Positions 1,944 through 34,794 of a stretch of DNA of 40,451 nucleotides are shown here, piece by piece (the stretch's first letter is position 1; every line of letters begins with the position of its first letter). The notes beneath the pieces were generated by a model, which worked only from the letters and a program-made list of their open reading frames with translations, was not told the origin of the DNA and searched no databases. This stretch comes from a virus: IMG/VR virus record IMGVR_UViG_3300042351_000343, positions 1 through 40,451 of that record; one strand, 5' to 3'. Position numbers and translations under genes: made by a program.

Positions 1944-3681
1944 TACTCAGCCCTCCCCTGTGTTGATGTTGCCATGTTTGTTCCTTGTGTCATGTTTACA
2001 GGGTGTCAGTCTTCAATCTTGATGCCGACAATCTTGCCTTTTTCTCTGACAATTTTACGGGGCTTGGTGAGCATGGCGGCTGTTTTAGTTTGGGCTTCTG
2101 CTGTTCGCTCCGATGCGGATTGAATGGCATTTGCTTGCATCTGGACAACTTCTTTCAATGAGTTTACGGCCTCGCTAATTTGGTTTCCTACCTGTTCGCT
2201 GCGTACATCCACCTCAGACCGTGCCCTGGTGCGACCGTCTTCGCCTCGCTCCATCCTTACGCCTTCGTTCATCATTTCTAAGGCGTGTTTTTCTTCGGCC
2301 ATTTGCAGTTCACGCTCTAGCTTCAGGGCTTCAAGTTCCATCTTTCTCTGACTCAGGTCAGGCATGGCGGGTTGAGCTTGTTGCGTTTGTGGCTCTTGAC
2401 CAATACCGGATAAGACTTCAGCGGTCTTAGCTTGGCTCAGTTCTGCGTCTGCGATTGTCTTGATGGTGCTTGCACGGGCTTGGGCTGCTTTGGCTTCGGC
2501 TTCTTCGGCTGCTGCTTGCAGGTACATGGAGTTTGGATCTTGCGGCTGATTTTGCATCTCGGCCATGAGTTCTTGGGCCTCGTCGTCGGTGGGCTTGACC
2601 ACGCCCATGCGCAGGAGCTTCTTGCGGAAGTAGGCATTGGCGTCGCTGATGCCCTCGCCCTCCATGTTCATCATGGCCATGGCGGTGATCACTTGCTGGG
2701 TCTCTGGATCTGCTGTGATCTGGAGCATCCCGGTCAGGGCGCGGACTGTGGCCTCGCGCTTGCTGGTGCTGGATGGGCCGACCTCGGCCACGACGTCAAA
2801 AGTGGCAGAGCTGAGGTCGTTTTGCATGACGACTTCGCCAGTCTGTTGGTCGATGCTGGGCTGCATGAGTTCGACCATCCCGGCCTCGCCTGTGGGGGCG
2901 ATGGTTTTCATCTTGCGCTTGTCTTCGATGTAGACCTCTTTGGCCATGGAGAGCCAGATTTCCCCGCAGCGCTTCATTCCCTTGGCAAAGTTGGACATGT
3001 AGATGAAGGCCTGCATGTCCACGCGAGTCTGGATCATCTCCACGGCCTTGCCTGACATTCCGCTGACCATCTTGTCGGCCCCGGCTGGGTTGCCCAAGAT
3101 GTCTTGCATGTCGGTTTCGGTGATCTGCAAGAGCGCGGCCATGGCCGGTGGTATGTTGGGGGCACGGGTGTAGGCGACGGGGCCCGAAACGGCCTGGTTG
3201 CCATTCTGGTCGGTGATCGGGTTGATCAGCAAATACGGGTAGTCCTTGAGGTTGTCCTCGGACCACATGACCTGGTGGCCTGCGACCTGCTCTGGGGTCA
3301 GGATGGGCTTTTCCACCGATGACAGTGCGGAGATCTCGCCCAGCTTGGACAGCTGCATGTTCTTCAGGCGTTGGGCATCTTTAGCCAAACGCACATGGCC
3401 CATGCAGCGTTCGATGTTGTCCACAAACCACCGTTTACCGTAAACCACAACGATAGGGATGCACTTGCCCGCGATGTAGCCCGCATCCTCCAAGACTCTG
3501 CCGCCCGACATGATGTACTTGCGAACACGTTTGCGCTTGACGCGCTTTTGACGGATCTCAACTGTGCCGATGGCCGCAAGGGTTTCTTCCAGGGTCTCGT
3601 CGTTGGCGAAGTCGGCCTGGGTGTAGCGTTCTTCCTCGCCTGCGATGTTCTGGAAGATGCGGATGGTCTCGGTCTTTTCCT
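1..3681. repeat. left copy of the non-identical terminal overlap (allele A)
   Basis: This segment matches 36744-40451 in gene order and sequence, so the window wraps past a full circular unit of about 36.77 kb (portal stop at 2006 here, 38776 there). Bases 2006 to about 3150 look identical to the other copy. Beyond 3150 scattered, mostly silent differences appear. Bases 1 to about 468 are similar, while about 470-1940 are unrelated to the other copy apart from shared style. The offset changes by 27 bp (9 codons) across the divergent stretch. Confidence 0.93.
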
Positions 3682-9238: not shown

Positions 9239-9348
9239 TCATCCTCCAAGTCTCCGGTCAATTTCAGTGCCATTGTTATGACGTGTTCAGGGTACTGCTG
9301 GCCTTCACGTACTCTGTCCAAAATCTTCATTGCTTCAAAATAGTTCAT
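9235..9348 (-). CDS. very small protein, 37 aa
   Basis: The ATG at 9348 overlaps the stop of the IbrA-like gene as ATGA, and the stop at 9235 overlaps the next ATG as ATGA. The peptide (NYFEAMKILDRVREG, then YPEHVITMALKLTGDLEDE) looks like one small helical domain and not random translation. Tight coupling on both sides supports it as a gene. Function unknown. Confidence 0.6.
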   Translation of the reverse strand: MNYFEAMKILDRVREGQQYPEHVITMALKLTGDLEDE

Positions 9349-10568
9349 GTTTTTAGTTCTTCAGCAAAAATGTTCCACTCCAAACGGCGGCGCTTCATTA
9401 AATCCTCATACTTTGCGTATGCGCTTGTTTTTGTCGGTGAAAAACCAAGGTATTTGCACCAGTAATCGTTACGGAGCAAAGTTTTGCACACTCGCCTCCA
9501 GCTTGGCGCTTTGCCAGCGTTTTCGATCTTCAAGTCTGCTGCGTCTGGTATTCCATCGGGATAACCACGGGCAGTCCACCACTTGATGTAAACGGCAATT
9601 TTGTTTTTGTAATGCTGCGCAGTCTTTGGGGGCGTGCTAGATAACAGGCTTTTGGCAAAGCTCTCCCATGTGTGGCCGTTTGGCAGGGTTATGGTGTGGT
9701 TACCCATCACGTTGCCTCGCTCGTTGCTATACATCTTTCCTGTGTTTGCACCATTGACCCGCAAAACTAACTTAGCCCACAAACTAGGCTCAACCACTTG
9801 GTACAACCAAAGACCTTTGCGCGATTCATCACCCATTGGCTCACATATACGCATTTGGCTTAACTTCATGCCTGCTTGGTGCATTCGGTCATACAGCTTG
9901 TTATGGCTTTTTCCTGTCTTGGCATGAAACGTCCAAATATCCTCAACCTTCCAATCGTAAATTGGGTACACGTTCCAAACATTCTCAACCACGTTGGTGG
10001 TAAACATCTTGCCTTCATACGTTGGCTTTTTGCGGCTGATTGAGCGAAAACGGTTGAGGCTTTCTTGTGCGCGAATTCCAACAAAACAGGCGCACTTTTC
10101 GCCCTGTGCGTACCATTGGCCGAAAGTGGGTACAAACTCCTCAAACATGATGCCTTCGTACCAAAACGGAAAATGTGACCCGTCTTTGATGCTGATCTCT
10201 GACTTTTGACGCGCCCACAGATTCTTTTTTGTTTCGTCCCAGGCTGTCCACTCAGGCTCAAACGTAGAACAGGCGTTCCATGTCTTGATTGGCACGGCTA
10301 CCCAATACGGTTCAATGTGGTCGGCGTATTCTTTGTAAATTGCTTCGGCAAAGTCGATGGTCAAAGTAAATTGCGCTTCCCAATCCAAAAAAAACAAGCC
10401 AATTTTGCGGCCACGCTTTTTAGCTTCTTCGCAAACCATGTGAACCATGACGCCGCTATCCTTACCCGCTGAAAAGCTGCAATAGATACGGTCAAAGTTA
10501 TCAAACGTCCATTCGATGCGCTCTTGTGCCGCTTGCAGCACGTTGATTCCAAGTCCACGTTTAGGCAT
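9345..10568 (-). CDS. IbrA-like PAPS-reductase family protein (DUF3440-type)
   Basis: The 407-residue protein carries a PP-loop SFSAGKDS at residues 31-38 and aromatic-rich segments resembling the PAPS reductase-related IbrA family. The start at 10568 has GGAGAG upstream and overlaps the previous stop by 8 bp; an ATG at 10598 is less well placed. In enterobacterial prophages IbrA pairs with ParB-like IbrB, as here (10922-11614), with a 125-residue gene in between. Biochemically the family should adenylate or transfer sulfur, but no substrate is established. It could modify DNA, tRNA or a protein, or be a regulator that has lost activity. Confidence 0.8.
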   Translation of the reverse strand: MPKRGLGINVLQAAQERIEWTFDNFDRIYCSFSAGKDSGVMVHMVCEEAKKRGRKIGLFFLDWEAQFTLTIDFAEAIYKEYADHIEPYWVAVPIKTWNACSTFEPEWTAWDETKKNLWARQKSEISIKDGSHFPFWYEGIMFEEFVPTFGQWYAQGEKCACFVGIRAQESLNRFRSISRKKPTYEGKMFTTNVVENVWNVYPIYDWKVEDIWTFHAKTGKSHNKLYDRMHQAGMKLSQMRICEPMGDESRKGLWLYQVVEPSLWAKLVLRVNGANTGKMYSNERGNVMGNHTITLPNGHTWESFAKSLLSSTPPKTAQHYKNKIAVYIKWWTARGYPDGIPDAADLKIENAGKAPSWRRVCKTLLRNDYWCKYLGFSPTKTSAYAKYEDLMKRRRLEWNIFAEELKT

Positions 10569-10938
10569 TGCAGCTCTCCCACTTGGCGATAACTTCATCG
10601 GCTACACGGTTAGCCATGTCTTGTGCTTCGGGCGTCATGTAAAAATTCCACGCTATGCGCGTTTCTTCTTCGGTTGCGCCGCAAGCAAAACAGCAAGCCG
10701 CTTGACCAATCCACGGGCGCTTTCCTTGGCTTTTGCTCAAATGCTGTTCTGCGCTGATTGGATAGGCGTTAACGGCCCCGATCATTGCCTCCCGGCACTT
10801 TGTCTCTGTTGACAAGATATTTGCAGCGTGTTGAATTTTGTTCATCTCATTTTTCCTTTTTGCCCACATTCCAGATTTAAAGCATTCCCAATTCCAATAG
10901 GGATGCCACTTTTCAAACAGGTCACGAAAGCGGTTCAT
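10561..10938 (-). CDS. unknown 125-aa protein between the IbrB-like and IbrA-like genes
   Basis: The gene overlaps its neighbours on both sides (17 bp and 8 bp). The N-terminal part is Trp/Lys-rich (FEKWHPYWNWECFKSGMWAK). The middle is ISAEQHLSKSQGKRPWIGQA followed by ACCFACGATEEETRIAWNF. Cys-Cys and Cys-X-Ala-Cys pairs could bind metal or act in thiol chemistry. I do not recognise the family. Its position inside the ParB-like/PP-loop pair suggests a shared pathway. Confidence 0.7.
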   Translation of the reverse strand: MNRFRDLFEKWHPYWNWECFKSGMWAKRKNEMNKIQHAANILSTETKCREAMIGAVNAYPISAEQHLSKSQGKRPWIGQAACCFACGATEEETRIAWNFYMTPEAQDMANRVADEVIAKWESCNA

Positions 10939-11614
10939 CTACACCCTCAATTTCTTCAAAGGTTTCAGCTTCCCACGCTTCGGAAAACTCAGCATCTGTA
11001 AACAATCCAGACAATCCCGTGACTTGCTGCAAACGCAAAACCTCGTCCGAATCCATGCCAAGCTCTTTGGCGATCTTTTCATCAGACCAAAAACGGCGCT
11101 TGAGTTCGACAACAATTTCAGACATTGATTCAACCTTATGTTCACCACGGGCACGGTTGTGGCGAATTGTTGATGCCATGCGGTCGTTTTTGTTTTGGCG
11201 GTTGCCATTGATAACAACGGCAGGCAAGTAACCATGAACACGGGCGCGAACTGTCTCTGACTCTTTGCCTACACGATGACGGTGAAATCCATCTACCACC
11301 TCAAACACCCCGTCACGGCTCCATGAAACGATTGGCTGTGTGTAACCATCCTCAGTGATGGAATGCTCCAGCAACTTCATTTCAGGTGGCGCTACGCTGT
11401 TTGGGTTGTAGTCGTTGGCGCTAACCAAGTCTGACTTAATCCAGCGAACACAATCCACTGGTTCGTTTTTGAACGGCGAATAAGGAAGCAAGGCCAAACG
11501 AATGTCATTGATTGCGTCAATGCGGTCTTGCAGGTCTAGGCTATCAAGTTTGGAAAACAAAGCTGCACATTCATTTGCAATCATTGTTTTTTCTTGGGTA
11601 TCAAACAAATCCAT
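10922..11614 (-). CDS. IbrB-like ParB/sulfiredoxin-fold protein
   Basis: The 230-residue protein contains a ParB-like N-terminal domain: VDCVRWIKSDLVSANDYNPN, LLEHSITEDGYTQPIV and VVDGFHRHRVGKE (about residues 40-120). A helix-turn-helix-like region follows (WSDEKIAKELGMDSDEVLRL), as in ParB relatives. No parA is present, so plasmid-type partition is unlikely. The pairing with the IbrA-like gene points to the prophage IbrA/IbrB module. The ATG at 11614 has AGGAGAAATAG upstream, and a candidate promoter lies at 11640-11680. Confidence 0.82.
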   Translation of the reverse strand: MDLFDTQEKTMIANECAALFSKLDSLDLQDRIDAINDIRLALLPYSPFKNEPVDCVRWIKSDLVSANDYNPNSVAPPEMKLLEHSITEDGYTQPIVSWSRDGVFEVVDGFHRHRVGKESETVRARVHGYLPAVVINGNRQNKNDRMASTIRHNRARGEHKVESMSEIVVELKRRFWSDEKIAKELGMDSDEVLRLQQVTGLSGLFTDAEFSEAWEAETFEEIEGVDEPLS

Positions 11615-11680
11615 CTATTTCTCCTGTTGTTGCAGTTCAATTCTAACCACAAATCAACACAATTTAAAAGTTTTTTTTAT
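11615..11680 (-). promoter_or_regulatory. candidate promoter of the IbrB-like operon (shared early element)
   Basis: On the minus strand the sequence has ATAAAAAAAACTTTTAA (11664-11680), then 18 bp, then TAGAAT (11640-11645). The same layout occurs at 17181-17221 on the plus strand and, less exactly, at 13957 reading leftwards. Inside the spacer are two TTGTG direct repeats 10 bp apart (11648-11652 and 11658-11662), a one-turn arrangement typical of protein binding. Confidence 0.6.
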
Positions 11681-11710
11681 AGGGTTTTCCCTAGGTAAAA
11701 GTTTTTACCT
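11680..11710. promoter_or_regulatory. two adjacent inverted repeats, operator-like
   Basis: TAGGGTTTTCCCTA (11680-11693) is followed directly by AGGTAAAAGTTTTTACCT (11693-11710), a palindrome with 8-bp perfect arms and a 2-bp centre. They lie between the methyltransferase stop and the candidate promoter. The first has a weaker counterpart (AGGG-TTTAT-CCCT, 17168-17180) just upstream of the plus-strand promoter, so it may be part of the shared control module. Confidence 0.5.
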
Positions 11711-11720
11711 TGGTGTTGTC

Positions 11721-12662
11721 TTACTTTGGGATGACATTAAACAAAGTTCTTTCTTCTTCAATTCTTTGTTGCTGCAAAGGCTTGTATTCAGGGTTCAACT
11801 CGCACCCCAAATACTGGCGGCCATGCTGGAGCGCCACGGCTGCGGTCGTGCCGCTGCCCATGAACGGATCGAGCACAATGTCGCCTGGGCGTGAGCCAGC
11901 CAAAATGCACGGCTCGATCAACGCGGGCGGGAAGGTGGCGAAGTGAGCGCCCTTGTAGGGCTTCGTTGCAACCGTCCAGACGCTGCGGCGGTTGCGGGTT
12001 TCCCACTCAACGCCAGCCAGTTTCACCAAGCCTTCTTTGGTGGCGTTCTTTGGATCACCCGTCCCAACATACTTATGTGTCTTGTTTCCTGCTGGTTTCT
12101 CGCTGACGGCTGGCTCCTTCATTGCCTCGCTGTCAAAAAAATACCTTTCCGATTTGCTCAACAAAAAGATGTACTCATGCGCTTTGGTGCAGCGGTCGCG
12201 CACCGACTCTGGCATTGGGTTTGGCTTGTGCCAGATAATGTCTTGGCGCAAATACCAGCCATCAGCGCGAAGGGCGAAGGCCAGCATCCACGGGATGCCG
12301 ATCAGGTCTTTAGGTTTGATGCCTTGTGGTGGCTTGCGCGTCTCTCCATTCCATGCTCCAGCCTGCGACCCTTTGGTTTGCTTTGTTCCTTGCACTTGAG
12401 CGCCACCTTGGGCAGCGTAGCTATCCCCAATGTTCAGCCAAAGCGTCCCATCGTCGGCCAGAACGTCACGCACGCAGCGGAACACCTCAACCATTGCGGC
12501 GATGTATTGCTCTGGCGTTTGCTCCAGACCAATCTGGCCTTCATGGCCGTAATCGCGCAAGCCAAAGTAAGGCGGGCTAGTCACGCACATCTGAGCCTTC
12601 ACGCCCTCGCTGGCCCATTGCCGCATGGTGTCGCGGCAGTCTCCAAATTCGATCTTGTTCAT
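11721..12662 (-). CDS. SPPY-type DNA methyltransferase (N4-cytosine or N6-adenine)
   Basis: The 313-residue enzyme has the catalytic motif TSPPYFGLRDYG (TSPPY at residues 28-32) before the AdoMet-binding motif DPFMGSGTT (265-273), the order of the beta class. SPPY is common in N4-cytosine enzymes but also occurs in adenine ones, so the base is uncertain. A variable middle part (about 90-200) would hold target recognition. No restriction endonuclease is nearby, so it is an orphan phage methylase, probably anti-restriction. The ribosome site is weak (AAAGG), and upstream lies a long structured leader with a C4-like RNA, suggesting post-transcriptional control. Confidence 0.9.
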   Translation of the reverse strand: MNKIEFGDCRDTMRQWASEGVKAQMCVTSPPYFGLRDYGHEGQIGLEQTPEQYIAAMVEVFRCVRDVLADDGTLWLNIGDSYAAQGGAQVQGTKQTKGSQAGAWNGETRKPPQGIKPKDLIGIPWMLAFALRADGWYLRQDIIWHKPNPMPESVRDRCTKAHEYIFLLSKSERYFFDSEAMKEPAVSEKPAGNKTHKYVGTGDPKNATKEGLVKLAGVEWETRNRRSVWTVATKPYKGAHFATFPPALIEPCILAGSRPGDIVLDPFMGSGTTAAVALQHGRQYLGCELNPEYKPLQQQRIEEERTLFNVIPK

Positions 12663-13079
12663 AGCAACCTTTCATTGATAACAAGTCGTCAAACAGCATC
12701 CCTACTACTCTCTGACACATACCCCGACTGGTGAACGCTTGGATGTTTGAGGCAATACTCACCTAAGAACAATCAATAAAGATTGAACTTAGTGAAATCA
12801 CCCCGACTGGAGCCACGCCCGTAGTCATCGGAATAGTCTATTGTTAGATTGACCATCTTGCAGAGTTACCCGACTAACATCGGCCCTTCTACCCGTCTCT
12901 GCACCCCTTTCGGGTCACTCTTGTGGGTTTGGCTTGGGAAGGTTCCCCCGTTGCCTTTGAACACAGTTACGGCGGCTTTAAATGCGGTCTACCTGTGTCG
13001 AGTTGCTTGTTTGATAGCCTTCTGAGTGGCTTCTGAGTGCTAGCAAACTTTGGTCTAGCATCAATGGGACGTTGACAAA
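12663..13079 (-). other. non-coding structured leader upstream of the methyltransferase
   Basis: No convincing gene fills this stretch of more than 400 bases. It holds two exact copies of ACCCCGACTGG (12721-12731, 12800-12810) and a related ACCCGACTAAC (12868). A hairpin lies at about 12760-12795 (minus strand CTAAG-TT-CAATC / GATTG-TT-CTTAG), a GCAGAG/CTCTGC stem at about 12859-12902, and a tandem repeat CTTCTGAGTG (13019-13028, 13030-13039). A 27-codon minus-strand frame (12773-12856) and a GTG-started frame (12577-12762) are open but weak. The density of repeats and stems suggests an RNA-level regulatory leader. Confidence 0.55.
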
Positions 13080-13197
13080 CAAAAAAGCCGTTACTACTGC
13101 CCTCGGTGGAAACCCTTAAATTGAACCAAGGGCGAAGGCATGAGTAACGGCTCTAAAGTCGGTCGCTTTCCACGGCAACGGTTTGATTGTAAGCATA
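13080..13197 (-). ncRNA. candidate C4-like antisense RNA with terminator stem
   Basis: On the minus strand a 10-bp outer stem (AGCCGTTACT, 13143-13152, with AGTAACGGCT, 13086-13095) encloses an inner stem GCCCTTGGT/ACCGAGGGC. That inner stem pairs fully, with one G-U, only when read as minus-strand RNA; the plus-strand version has an A-C mismatch. The outer stem is followed by T6, so the structure can terminate. An upstream GTGGAAA can pair with loop TTTCCAC, giving an alternative fold. From memory the layout and the GGGTTTCCACCGAGGGCAGT core resemble the C4 antisense RNAs of P1/P7-type phages. I could not run a covariance search. Confidence 0.5.
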
Positions 13198-13222
13198 AAA
13201 AAAGGGACTCGCAAGCCCCTTT
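13196..13222 (-). terminator. Rho-independent terminator after the regulator operon
   Basis: On the minus strand, AAAGGGG then CTTGCGAGT then CCCTTT runs directly into a T-rich tract (about seven T in total). It lies 12 bp past the stop of the replication-helper-like gene, so it would end the transcript carrying the Cro-like regulator and that gene. Confidence 0.7.
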
Positions 13223-13233
13223 GTGAAAAAAAT

Positions 13234-13599
13234 TTACATCCGTCTGATCTGCGCCAGTCGTTCCCTTATGTGGTCAGGCATAGGGACCGCTTTTTTCCTG
13301 TCTGCTGCGATCTTTTGCAAAGCAGGGTCAATGTACTCACTAGCGGGTTTGTTGGCTGTAAAGCCCTCAGGAATCTCTGCACCGTCCCATCGTTGCTGGT
13401 TCAGGTACACCAGGGGCGCGGGAATGAAAGCGCCGTTGTCTTTTCGCCACTGGTCGGTGGTTTTCATCCATTCCACGTGCTTAACGATCTGGTCAGCACA
13501 TCCGTCATACAAACCTTTTTTCCATCGTGCCAAGCAAACAGACTTGCCGCCTTTGCGGACTGACTTGGGCCAAGCTGCCCAAAATTGTTCAAAGTTCAT
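13234..13599 (-). CDS. replication-protein-like helper, 121 aa
   Basis: The start at 13599 is supported by GAGAGGAACTGAA upstream; an in-frame ATG at 13671 adds 24 residues of Pro-rich sequence and is less likely. The domain FEQFWAAWPKSVRKGGK...W...FIPAPLVYLNQQRWDG is the pattern found at the C terminus of many phage replication initiators and helicase loaders. Here it stands alone without an initiator or helicase domain, so it may help recruit host replication proteins. It follows the Cro-like gene and precedes a terminator. Confidence 0.65.
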   Translation of the reverse strand: MNFEQFWAAWPKSVRKGGKSVCLARWKKGLYDGCADQIVKHVEWMKTTDQWRKDNGAFIPAPLVYLNQQRWDGAEIPEGFTANKPASEYIDPALQKIAADRKKAVPMPDHIRERLAQIRRM

Positions 13600-13697
13600 T
13601 TCAGTTCCTCTCAAACCCTCCAAAAAAGACTGACGGCAGGCGGGAGGTTCGCTTTTCGGCAAGGGGATCAATTCTTGCCTATCCGGGTCTTAAACTT

Positions 13698-33522: not shown

Positions 33523-34794
33523 TTATTGATTAAACAGCAAGATGCCAGCCATTTGCGGGTTGGACATTGTGACGCCGTACAAAGTATCCAGACGATACTT
33601 TGTGGTCATGGTGTCAATGTCGTAGAACTTTTGCATCACCAGCTCGATGCCCTGGTCGGTGCTGGCACGCATAACGGATGTGCCTGCATCGGTGGGGACA
33701 GCGTAGCGACCGGGCAGCAACTCGATGCTGTCTTTGTGCCAGAAGCAGTTTACGCCGGTGGCGTTGTCGTTGAGCCAGTTCAGCGTTGCGGTAGCGGATG
33801 TGCTGGCCACTTCAATGTTCTGGTACTGCAACTCTGGGTCGGTTGGGCTAGAGTTTGCGCCAATCATCGGGGGGCTGATTGTCATGGTCGTGCCCGAGTC
33901 CACCGAGATAACTCGGAAGGTCTTGGGCAGGCCGGTAGACAGCTTGGTGATGTGGTGGCGTGCGTTGATGCCAGGGATCGTGAAAGCATCACCAACGTTG
34001 ACGCCGGTGGTGGTGCTCACAGTCACTGTTTGATAGCGGTTGTCCACGTTGATTTGACCGCCGACCGAGTTGGAGGTGGCACGGGGCACAAAGCGAACTT
34101 GAGCGCCGTTGGTGGCGATGGTGACCGCTGTGGCTTGCGCTGCAATGCGGTTGCCGTAGTCGAGCTTGTAGGTCTCAAAGCCTGCGACCATGCCAACGTA
34201 GCTGCGCTCATAGGCCTTGTCAGACTTGCTGTTGCCAAAGCTGCGAGTGGTTGCGGCCAAGTTGCCTGCCAGACCGTTGTAATCGCGGCTGTTCAGTGCG
34301 AGGTAACGGTTCTCCATTGGGATGCCTTGCTCGTTCAACAAGCTGTCGCACAGGGCGATATCGTCGTAGTCACCAGATGCACCAGCAACAGGCACGACCA
34401 GAGTTCCTTGGTTAGCGGCCACGTTCATGACAGACACGTTAATGTCGCTGGCCAGCTTTTGGCGTGCAGCTTGGCCAAGGCGGTTTTCTTGCAAGGCGTC
34501 GCGCAGTTCTTTTGCGTCCAGTTTCCATGCGCTTGTCTTGGAAAACCCAAGGGTCGCAGGGACGGACAATTGCGTCATGTCTTCGTAGTTCGACGAGATG
34601 GACGAGCCAACAGTCGAATTGAAAGATGTTGCAATGTAGGGCATTGGACGCCAGATGGTGTCGCGGCTGCGCTCCATGCTGGTGCTGTCAGTGTTAAACA
34701 CGGACACGTTGCGGGACAAAACGAGGGCGTCTTGAAAACCCTCAAGGATACTTTCAAACGCGACACGTTCTTCTTTAGAAAATGCATTAGCCAT
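33523..34794 (-). CDS. major coat protein (P22 gp5-like)
   Basis: The 423-residue protein matches the P22 coat family in length (430) and order: N arm with SRNVSVFNTDSTSMERSRDT and IWRPMPYIAT, core helix DAKELRDALQENRLGQAARQ, an inserted domain about 225-310 (GGQINVDNRYQTVTVSTTTG), and DNATGVNCFWHKDSIELLPG near the C terminus. It forms the HK97-fold capsid. It is followed by a strong hairpin and preceded by the scaffold gene. Confidence 0.92.
   Translation of the reverse strand: MANAFSKEERVAFESILEGFQDALVLSRNVSVFNTDSTSMERSRDTIWRPMPYIATSFNSTVGSSISSNYEDMTQLSVPATLGFSKTSAWKLDAKELRDALQENRLGQAARQKLASDINVSVMNVAANQGTLVVPVAGASGDYDDIALCDSLLNEQGIPMENRYLALNSRDYNGLAGNLAATTRSFGNSKSDKAYERSYVGMVAGFETYKLDYGNRIAAQATAVTIATNGAQVRFVPRATSNSVGGQINVDNRYQTVTVSTTTGVNVGDAFTIPGINARHHITKLSTGLPKTFRVISVDSGTTMTISPPMIGANSSPTDPELQYQNIEVASTSATATLNWLNDNATGVNCFWHKDSIELLPGRYAVPTDAGTSVMRASTDQGIELVMQKFYDIDTMTTKYRLDTLYGVTMSNPQMAGILLFNQ

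Follow-up and report, generated by a model that had tools for sequence, protein, structure and literature searches.

A single-copy leader RNA of freshwater phages with a pseudoknot, a terminator hairpin and interchangeable second RNAs

What is the folded, non-coding stretch that separates a replication-initiator-like gene from a DNA methyltransferase gene in an uncultivated viral genome, and what might it control? The stretch lies in IMG/VR record IMGVR_UViG_3300042351_000343, whose positions 1 to 40,451 were analyzed as a whole (the window). An initial annotation, made from the letters of the window, placed a C4-like antisense RNA candidate at 13080–13197 and suggested that, the downstream gene being a methyltransferase, it may regulate DNA modification. 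Our answer is that the hairpin belongs to an RNA family of freshwater phages that is undescribed; we tentatively prefer, among several readings of its function, an attenuator at the heads of operons that carries a kin-specific pairing tag. The features on which the argument rests are the following.

13234 to 13599, minus strand: replication-initiator-like gene, upstream (PHROG 9474, E = 5.6e-14, for the ORF 13234–13671)
13201 to 13222, minus strand: intrinsic terminator of the upstream gene, from the terminator/promoter scan; its hairpin holds the −35 element of the leader
within 13201 to 13222, minus strand: T-run of that upstream terminator, which contributes to the spacer of the leader promoter
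13186 to 13214, minus strand: predicted promoter (TTGCGA, 17 nt, TACAAT), from the promoter scan plus the family-wide −10
13081 to 13180, minus strand: type-1 leader RNA, about 100 nt, from the model match and covariation; the start is deduced from the −10
13162 to 13179, minus strand: 5′ hairpin H1, five pairs (98.6% of cells paired)
13167 to 13173, minus strand: 5′ arm of the pseudoknot, GTGGAAA (the pairing tag), from covariation
13106 to 13112, minus strand: 3′ arm of the pseudoknot, TTTCCAC, in the bulge of the main hairpin, from covariation
13086 to 13152, minus strand: main (terminator) hairpin with a conserved CA/GT internal loop, from folding and covariation
13081 to 13086, minus strand: terminator U-tract, from the sequence
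12663 to 13080, minus strand: second RNA, 'type F', with approximate ends; non-coding up to the methyltransferase gene
11721 to 12662, minus strand: DNA methyltransferase gene, downstream (Pfam N6_N4_Mtase, E = 2.8e-55)

On the minus strand, a two-part stem runs into a T-tract (TTTTTT at 13086–13081); read from the sequence, its outer part pairs 13152–13143 with 13095–13086 and its inner part pairs 13140–13133 with 13105–13098. The minimum free energy (MFE) of 13152–13080 on this strand is −36.1 kcal/mol (z = −7.47; equaled by none of 200 shuffles), that of the same bases on the plus strand is −28.7 (z = −5.04), and one pair of the inner stem is U-G on the minus strand vs A-C on the plus strand, as the initial annotation had noticed. 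The 5′ segment GTGGAAA (minus strand, 13173–13167) is exactly complementary to TTTCCAC (minus strand, 13112–13106); the annotation read this complementarity as a second possible fold, and the pairing is indeed conserved, but it is not an alternative: it forms a pseudoknot, compatible with both hairpins, that bridges the loop of the 5′ hairpin (13179–13162) and the bulge of the main hairpin. Similarly, 13080–13197 was correctly located, but the element is larger, that is, it extends from the promoter at approximately 13214–13186 to 13081, with a second RNA beyond that reaches approximately 12720 or further. The annotation was also right in seeing a minus-strand RNA of regulatory type with a terminator. 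The covariance model of the family gives 106.5 bits on the minus strand (the window itself is among the model's 88 training rows) and 18.4 bits on the plus strand.

The family to which the annotation had assigned this RNA is not the correct one, however. The C4 RNAs of P1/P7 are short folded phage RNAs that obtain their specificity from short complementary segments; they are complementary to a downstream target within the same transcript, and the operon downstream is that of the antirepressor (icd/ant). Downstream of the window RNA there is no antirepressor, the next gene being the DNA methyltransferase. When the covariance-model check was run, C4 (RF01695, as the c4 antisense RNA is listed in PMC2864571) had no gathering-score match in the window and was not among the five weak, unrelated Rfam matches listed for 12660–13240 at E ≤ 10; it also had no gathering-score match in 31 loci whose leader is this one or a related one, and no match at E ≤ 0.1 in 14 loci. 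At the gathering score, Rfam 15 as a whole gives no match in the window. The leader resembles C4 as a phage-encoded, short folded RNA with short complementary segments but differs in having its own terminator, then a second RNA, and no antirepressor; the logic of C4 may still apply, because a fast-changing, self-complementary segment fits antisense specificity. The suggested link to DNA modification does not generalize either: the RNA precedes many different genes, so the methyltransferase, merely the next gene in the window, is local context.

Two other properties of the window were observed. Behind the RNA locus, genes for a PAPS-reductase/DUF3440 protein, a ParB-like protein and the N6/N4 methyltransferase lie in a row (9345–12662, minus strand). 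Also, the 40,451 nucleotides contain a repeat of approximately 1.7 kb at a spacing of 36770 (approximately 1.9–3.68 kb vs 38.7–40.45 kb) with 89–100% identity per 200-base block; the sequence before the repeat is unlike at this distance, which makes the record look either over-long or assembled from two variants.

How widely does the RNA occur? A two-arm pattern with a free middle was found in 34 viral contigs and a wider core pattern in at least 119, whereas the exact core pattern was found in one of 84,980 species genomes. That single match is located in a Comamonadaceae bin, on a contig with terminase, Erf, and RusA genes that is, therefore, a phage contig. With the covariance model, two of 399 genomes of the same family match; the second match (31 bits, in a very G+C-rich, coding-like stretch) was judged to be chance. 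The carriers are probably phages of Burkholderiales. One of them is in GenBank: in MW202484.1 (Manatee Spring), the leader lies beneath an ORF annotated as a hypothetical protein (UOF77725.1, which overlaps both leader and second RNA at 33533–33892, that is, 2951–3310 of our locus L287); this ORF is probably not a real gene. The family is undescribed in the open-licence papers of PubMed Central, itself weak evidence of absence.

The conservation of the fold was assessed with 88 non-redundant sequences (137 reduced to 89 representatives at ≤88% identity, minus L342, in which an insertion displaces the 5′ hairpin). Displayed side by side, the matches share a TATAAT-like box and a short 5′ hairpin; in addition, a loop co-varies with a bulge of the main hairpin. 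The paired positions are kept in relatives: for the fold including the pseudoknot, 97.0% of cells are paired and 22 of the 35 pairs have changed on both sides, with a covariation score of 0.506 vs 0.174 for shuffles and ≤0.112 when the partners are slid. In the main hairpin, the 18-pair helix is paired in 99.2% of cells and the apical five-pair helix in 85.4%; because the search patterns fix parts of this core, some of its conservation follows from the search itself. Neither the tag nor the promoter was part of these patterns. For the pseudoknot alone, 98.4% of cells are paired and six of seven pairs have changed on both sides; its third pair, for example, is C-G in 34 sequences, G-C in 29, A-U in 23, and U-A in two. 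Spacing within the hairpin varies by single bases, which excludes a conserved reading frame; a protein-coding leader was rejected on this basis.

The signals that flank the fold suggest where transcription would begin and end. In 75 of 88 leaders (7.2% of random places), a −10 hexamer lies 6–8 nt upstream of the 5′ hairpin; a −35, with 8 of 12 reached, accompanies it in 60 of 88 (1.8% of random places). In the window, the promoter scan found one site vs 1.1 expected, which by itself is weak evidence. At the other end, the hairpin is followed by a T-run in 124 of the 125 pattern matches (the one that lacks it is a chance match), and the window leader has the G+C-rich hairpin and U-tract of an intrinsic terminator. 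In 13 of 89 leaders, including that of the window, the −35 lies inside the terminator hairpin of the upstream gene (vs four of 1780 random stretches). Such fusion of promoter and upstream terminator is what might be expected if the locus simply insulated operons by means of an ordinary promoter and terminator, the non-coding stretch behind it being unrelated. We regard that explanation as improbable: ordinary terminators have neither a conserved pseudoknot (with six of seven pairs changed on both sides) or core sequence nor a lasting linkage to conserved second RNAs.

That linkage is general, since a conserved non-coding stretch lies behind nearly all leaders. By single linkage, 87 of 89 downstream stretches are similar to another one over 40 nt or more; the stretch of the window stands alone among those 89. 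The second RNA of the window is 86% identical to that of L082 over 13092–12720, and 147 nt of it (13003–12857) recur with approximately 80–84% identity in 17–18 loci upstream of replication-initiator genes; its fold has a z of −2.30. The stretches behind leaders comprise several types of second RNA that are interchangeable. One type is the Betaproteobacteria-1 RNA (RF02932), which reportedly comes from a 2017 paper; it is the downstream partner of the leader in other phages (L167, L202, L233, L295), not the leader itself, and in L289 it is found behind another leader type. The RF02932 model has no match in the window; elsewhere its matches lie behind the leader.

A further second RNA is type B, with 85 stretches found by a pattern of its own. 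In an alignment of 32 of 38 representatives (L315, L319, L324, L341, L350, and L364 were omitted as odd), 22 of 37 predicted pairs have changed on both sides; the MFE of one type-B RNA alone is no better than that of shuffles (z = +0.70), so the fold is visible only from the alignment. A terminator-like hairpin is located upstream of type B at 57 of 64 distinct sites vs 39 of 640 random stretches.

Each kind of leader can be combined with different kinds of second RNA. The type-1 leader (n = 118; five further loci are too short to judge) precedes types A (9), B (36), C (15, plus 6 in compound form), D (25), E (6), F (2), G (1), and H (2), two further compound forms (1 each), and 14 unclassed stretches. 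The unrelated type-2 leader (n = 19) precedes types B (1), C (9), and F (7) and two unclassed stretches; both type-3 leaders precede type A.

Free swapping and type-B covariation, together with a single copy per record at differing places, would be compatible with a locus of two RNAs that act in trans: the leader would be a short RNA in its own right, with the second RNAs as exchangeable effectors that are produced by leaky read-through and aimed, for example, at host defence. We consider this possible but on the doubtful side; action in trans has no need of the constant orientation and operon-head preference described below.

Several loci have additional components. Upstream of type B in L306, L319, L341, L361, and L371 are leaders outside the type 1–3 patterns that by eye have the same layout of hairpin plus T-run. 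In L369, L345, L347, and L310, the leader and the type-B RNA are separated by an additional structured stretch that contains a T-loop motif like that of tRNAs, GGTTCGANTCC; Rfam finds no tRNA match in this stretch of L369, L310, and L345. A further type of second RNA, in L212 and L214, contains the T-arm-like GTGGGTTCAAGTCC, and in L214 three tRNA genes lie directly upstream of the leader. Unconnected with the RNA, the terminase large subunit ORF of L173 (1046 aa) has by eye an intein-like insert.

The position of the locus in the genome is the next line of evidence. In a model scan, each of 44 records contains exactly one locus, all second matches being the same place on the opposite strand; the records were picked for holding a leader, so these numbers measure copy number, not prevalence. 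With scored gene calls, the next gene on the same strand is located 207–923 nt downstream in 33 of 33 records, and the co-directional run of genes is longer downstream than upstream in 25 (the reverse in seven, a tie in one), a ratio that overstates the independent cases because the 33 records include near-duplicates (11 pairs); these calls supersede an earlier crude-ORF count of gene runs (15/18). Typically, in the 25 records, the locus is found one to three genes past a strand switch; in the seven, it is within a long same-strand region and not near its head. In other contigs, the locus is near terminase genes or before the gene for the major head protein, the protein families having been checked on representatives.

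A structured RNA near phage operon heads with a host promoter is reminiscent of the put sites of HK022. According to PMC9378689, putL and putR are two-stem RNAs of approximately 70 nt that lie close to early promoters and need no phage protein for their action in cis. The put RNA suppresses pausing and termination in cis via the zinc-binding domain of the β′ subunit of RNA polymerase. By analogy, the leader and second RNA might bind RNA polymerase so that terminators along the operon are ignored, and the operon-head place, the host-type promoter, and the large conserved fold, as well as the resemblance to putL/putR in placement, agree with this. We nonetheless think cis antitermination unlikely: essentially all members have a U-tract after the leader hairpin, and a cis element has no need of a fast-changing tag. 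The leader also differs from put in its pseudoknot, its U-tract, and the second RNA behind it.

A replication-origin RNA of the ColE1 kind (a primer RNA plus a control RNA) was also considered. Replication-initiator loci (n = 80) carry a type-1 leader in 36 cases and a type-2 leader in 31, never the two together; the other 13 carry neither, as judged by pattern only (several are short fragments, and the leader of L150 is type-2-like by eye); thus 67 of 80 have one or the other. There is one locus per record, and the GC-skew minimum of the window (approximately 13.9–14.5 kb) is nearby. Across 18 records, however, the distance to the skew minimum is as by chance (mean 0.265 vs 0.25 for a uniform distribution); an origin located by GC skew was therefore rejected, and we judge an origin RNA to be very improbable.

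A further property of the leader is the variability of its pairing tag. In the fixed-core subclass of type-1 leaders, three loop bases occur in ten forms and are fully compensated by Watson-Crick changes in 38 of 38; in all 19 type-2 leaders (19 of 19), the sequence of a segment with 8–11 contiguous pairs is almost free to differ, and there is hardly any variation at the other positions. The 7/7 tag is perfect in 108 of 118 leaders by script; inspection by eye attributes nine of the ten misses to slips of register in the regular expression and shows one (L225) to be 6/7. Between pairs of relatives with flanks that are 90–97% identical, tags differ in 23 of 56. The divergence per nucleotide of tag, flanks, and rest of the leader is 0.163, 0.073, and 0.069, respectively, at 90–97% flank identity, 0.254, 0.127, and 0.111 at 85–90%, and 0.330, 0.181, and 0.135 at 80–85%, that is, the tag changes approximately twofold faster than the flanking DNA with complementarity kept (only perfectly matched tags enter these figures, including the 23 of 56, and the divergence pairs are not independent). 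The need for two-sided change should slow the evolution of a helix rather than speed it up; this rate might stem from selection for difference, from recombination that exchanges entire tags, or from a relaxed constraint on sequence.

The stretch that directly follows the terminator is complementary to the H1 of its own locus with a score of 16.66, compared with 14.21 (sd 0.31) for other loci (0 of 300 shuffles); in the window this complementarity is weak (10.0 vs the mean of 16.66). In 18 phage sequences searched for targets elsewhere in their own genomes, the longest tag match averaged 9.17 nt vs 9.42 nt for foreign tags, a weak negative because for at least four of the 18 (G426, G427, G430, G438) the 14-mer was taken in the wrong register. 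Loop pairing of this general type is familiar from ColE1 RNAI/RNAII and from the CI RNA of phage P4; in these, as would be the case here, the sequence of the pairing would set self/non-self specificity, but in the leader both partners are within one molecule.

The attenuator that we tentatively prefer would work as follows. A host-type (σ70-type) promoter would produce a leader of approximately 100 nt that folds as a loop-bulge pseudoknot and stops at its own intrinsic terminator; partial read-through would extend the transcript into the second, large structured RNA and then into a long operon. The leader would, therefore, act as an attenuator that also releases a stable short RNA. Its 7-bp tag would pair only with its own copies, either on another leader or on the partly complementary stretch behind the terminator, and such pairing between copies might provide feedback or a kin-specific shut-off according to the logic of C4, the P4 CI RNA, and ColE1 RNAI. 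The succession of promoter, short leader, terminator, second RNA, and operon matches the layout of an attenuated unit, and a self-complementary tag that differs among relatives suggests pairing between copies; from these we propose the kin-specific attenuator. The layout shared by unrelated leaders, the swapping of leader and second-RNA types, the promoter and T-run signals, the operon-head place, the single locus per record, the covariation, the faster change of the tag, and the family-wide complementarity behind the terminator argue for it. The seven of 33 loci away from the head of a run, the weak complementarity behind the terminator of the window, and the weakly negative target search argue against it, the tag rate may have causes other than selection, and attenuation by itself leaves the large, diverse second RNAs unexplained.

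A more speculative extension, to which we give low credence, is that the tag is under selection to differ and that the locus is a self/non-self system made only of RNA, which would choose whose operon runs in a co-infection. It would place one locus of exchangeable parts (a tagged leader that pairs with itself and stops at its own terminator, plus at least one large structured RNA), mostly at operon heads, in each genome of phages with very different gene content.

The Betaproteobacteria-1 RNA finds at least a partial explanation as one building block of this larger locus. As a single-copy RNA shared by phages with unrelated genes, the locus points to a basic, overlooked step of gene control, and with its fast-changing, self-matching tag the leader may be an RNA switch that discriminates between related phages.
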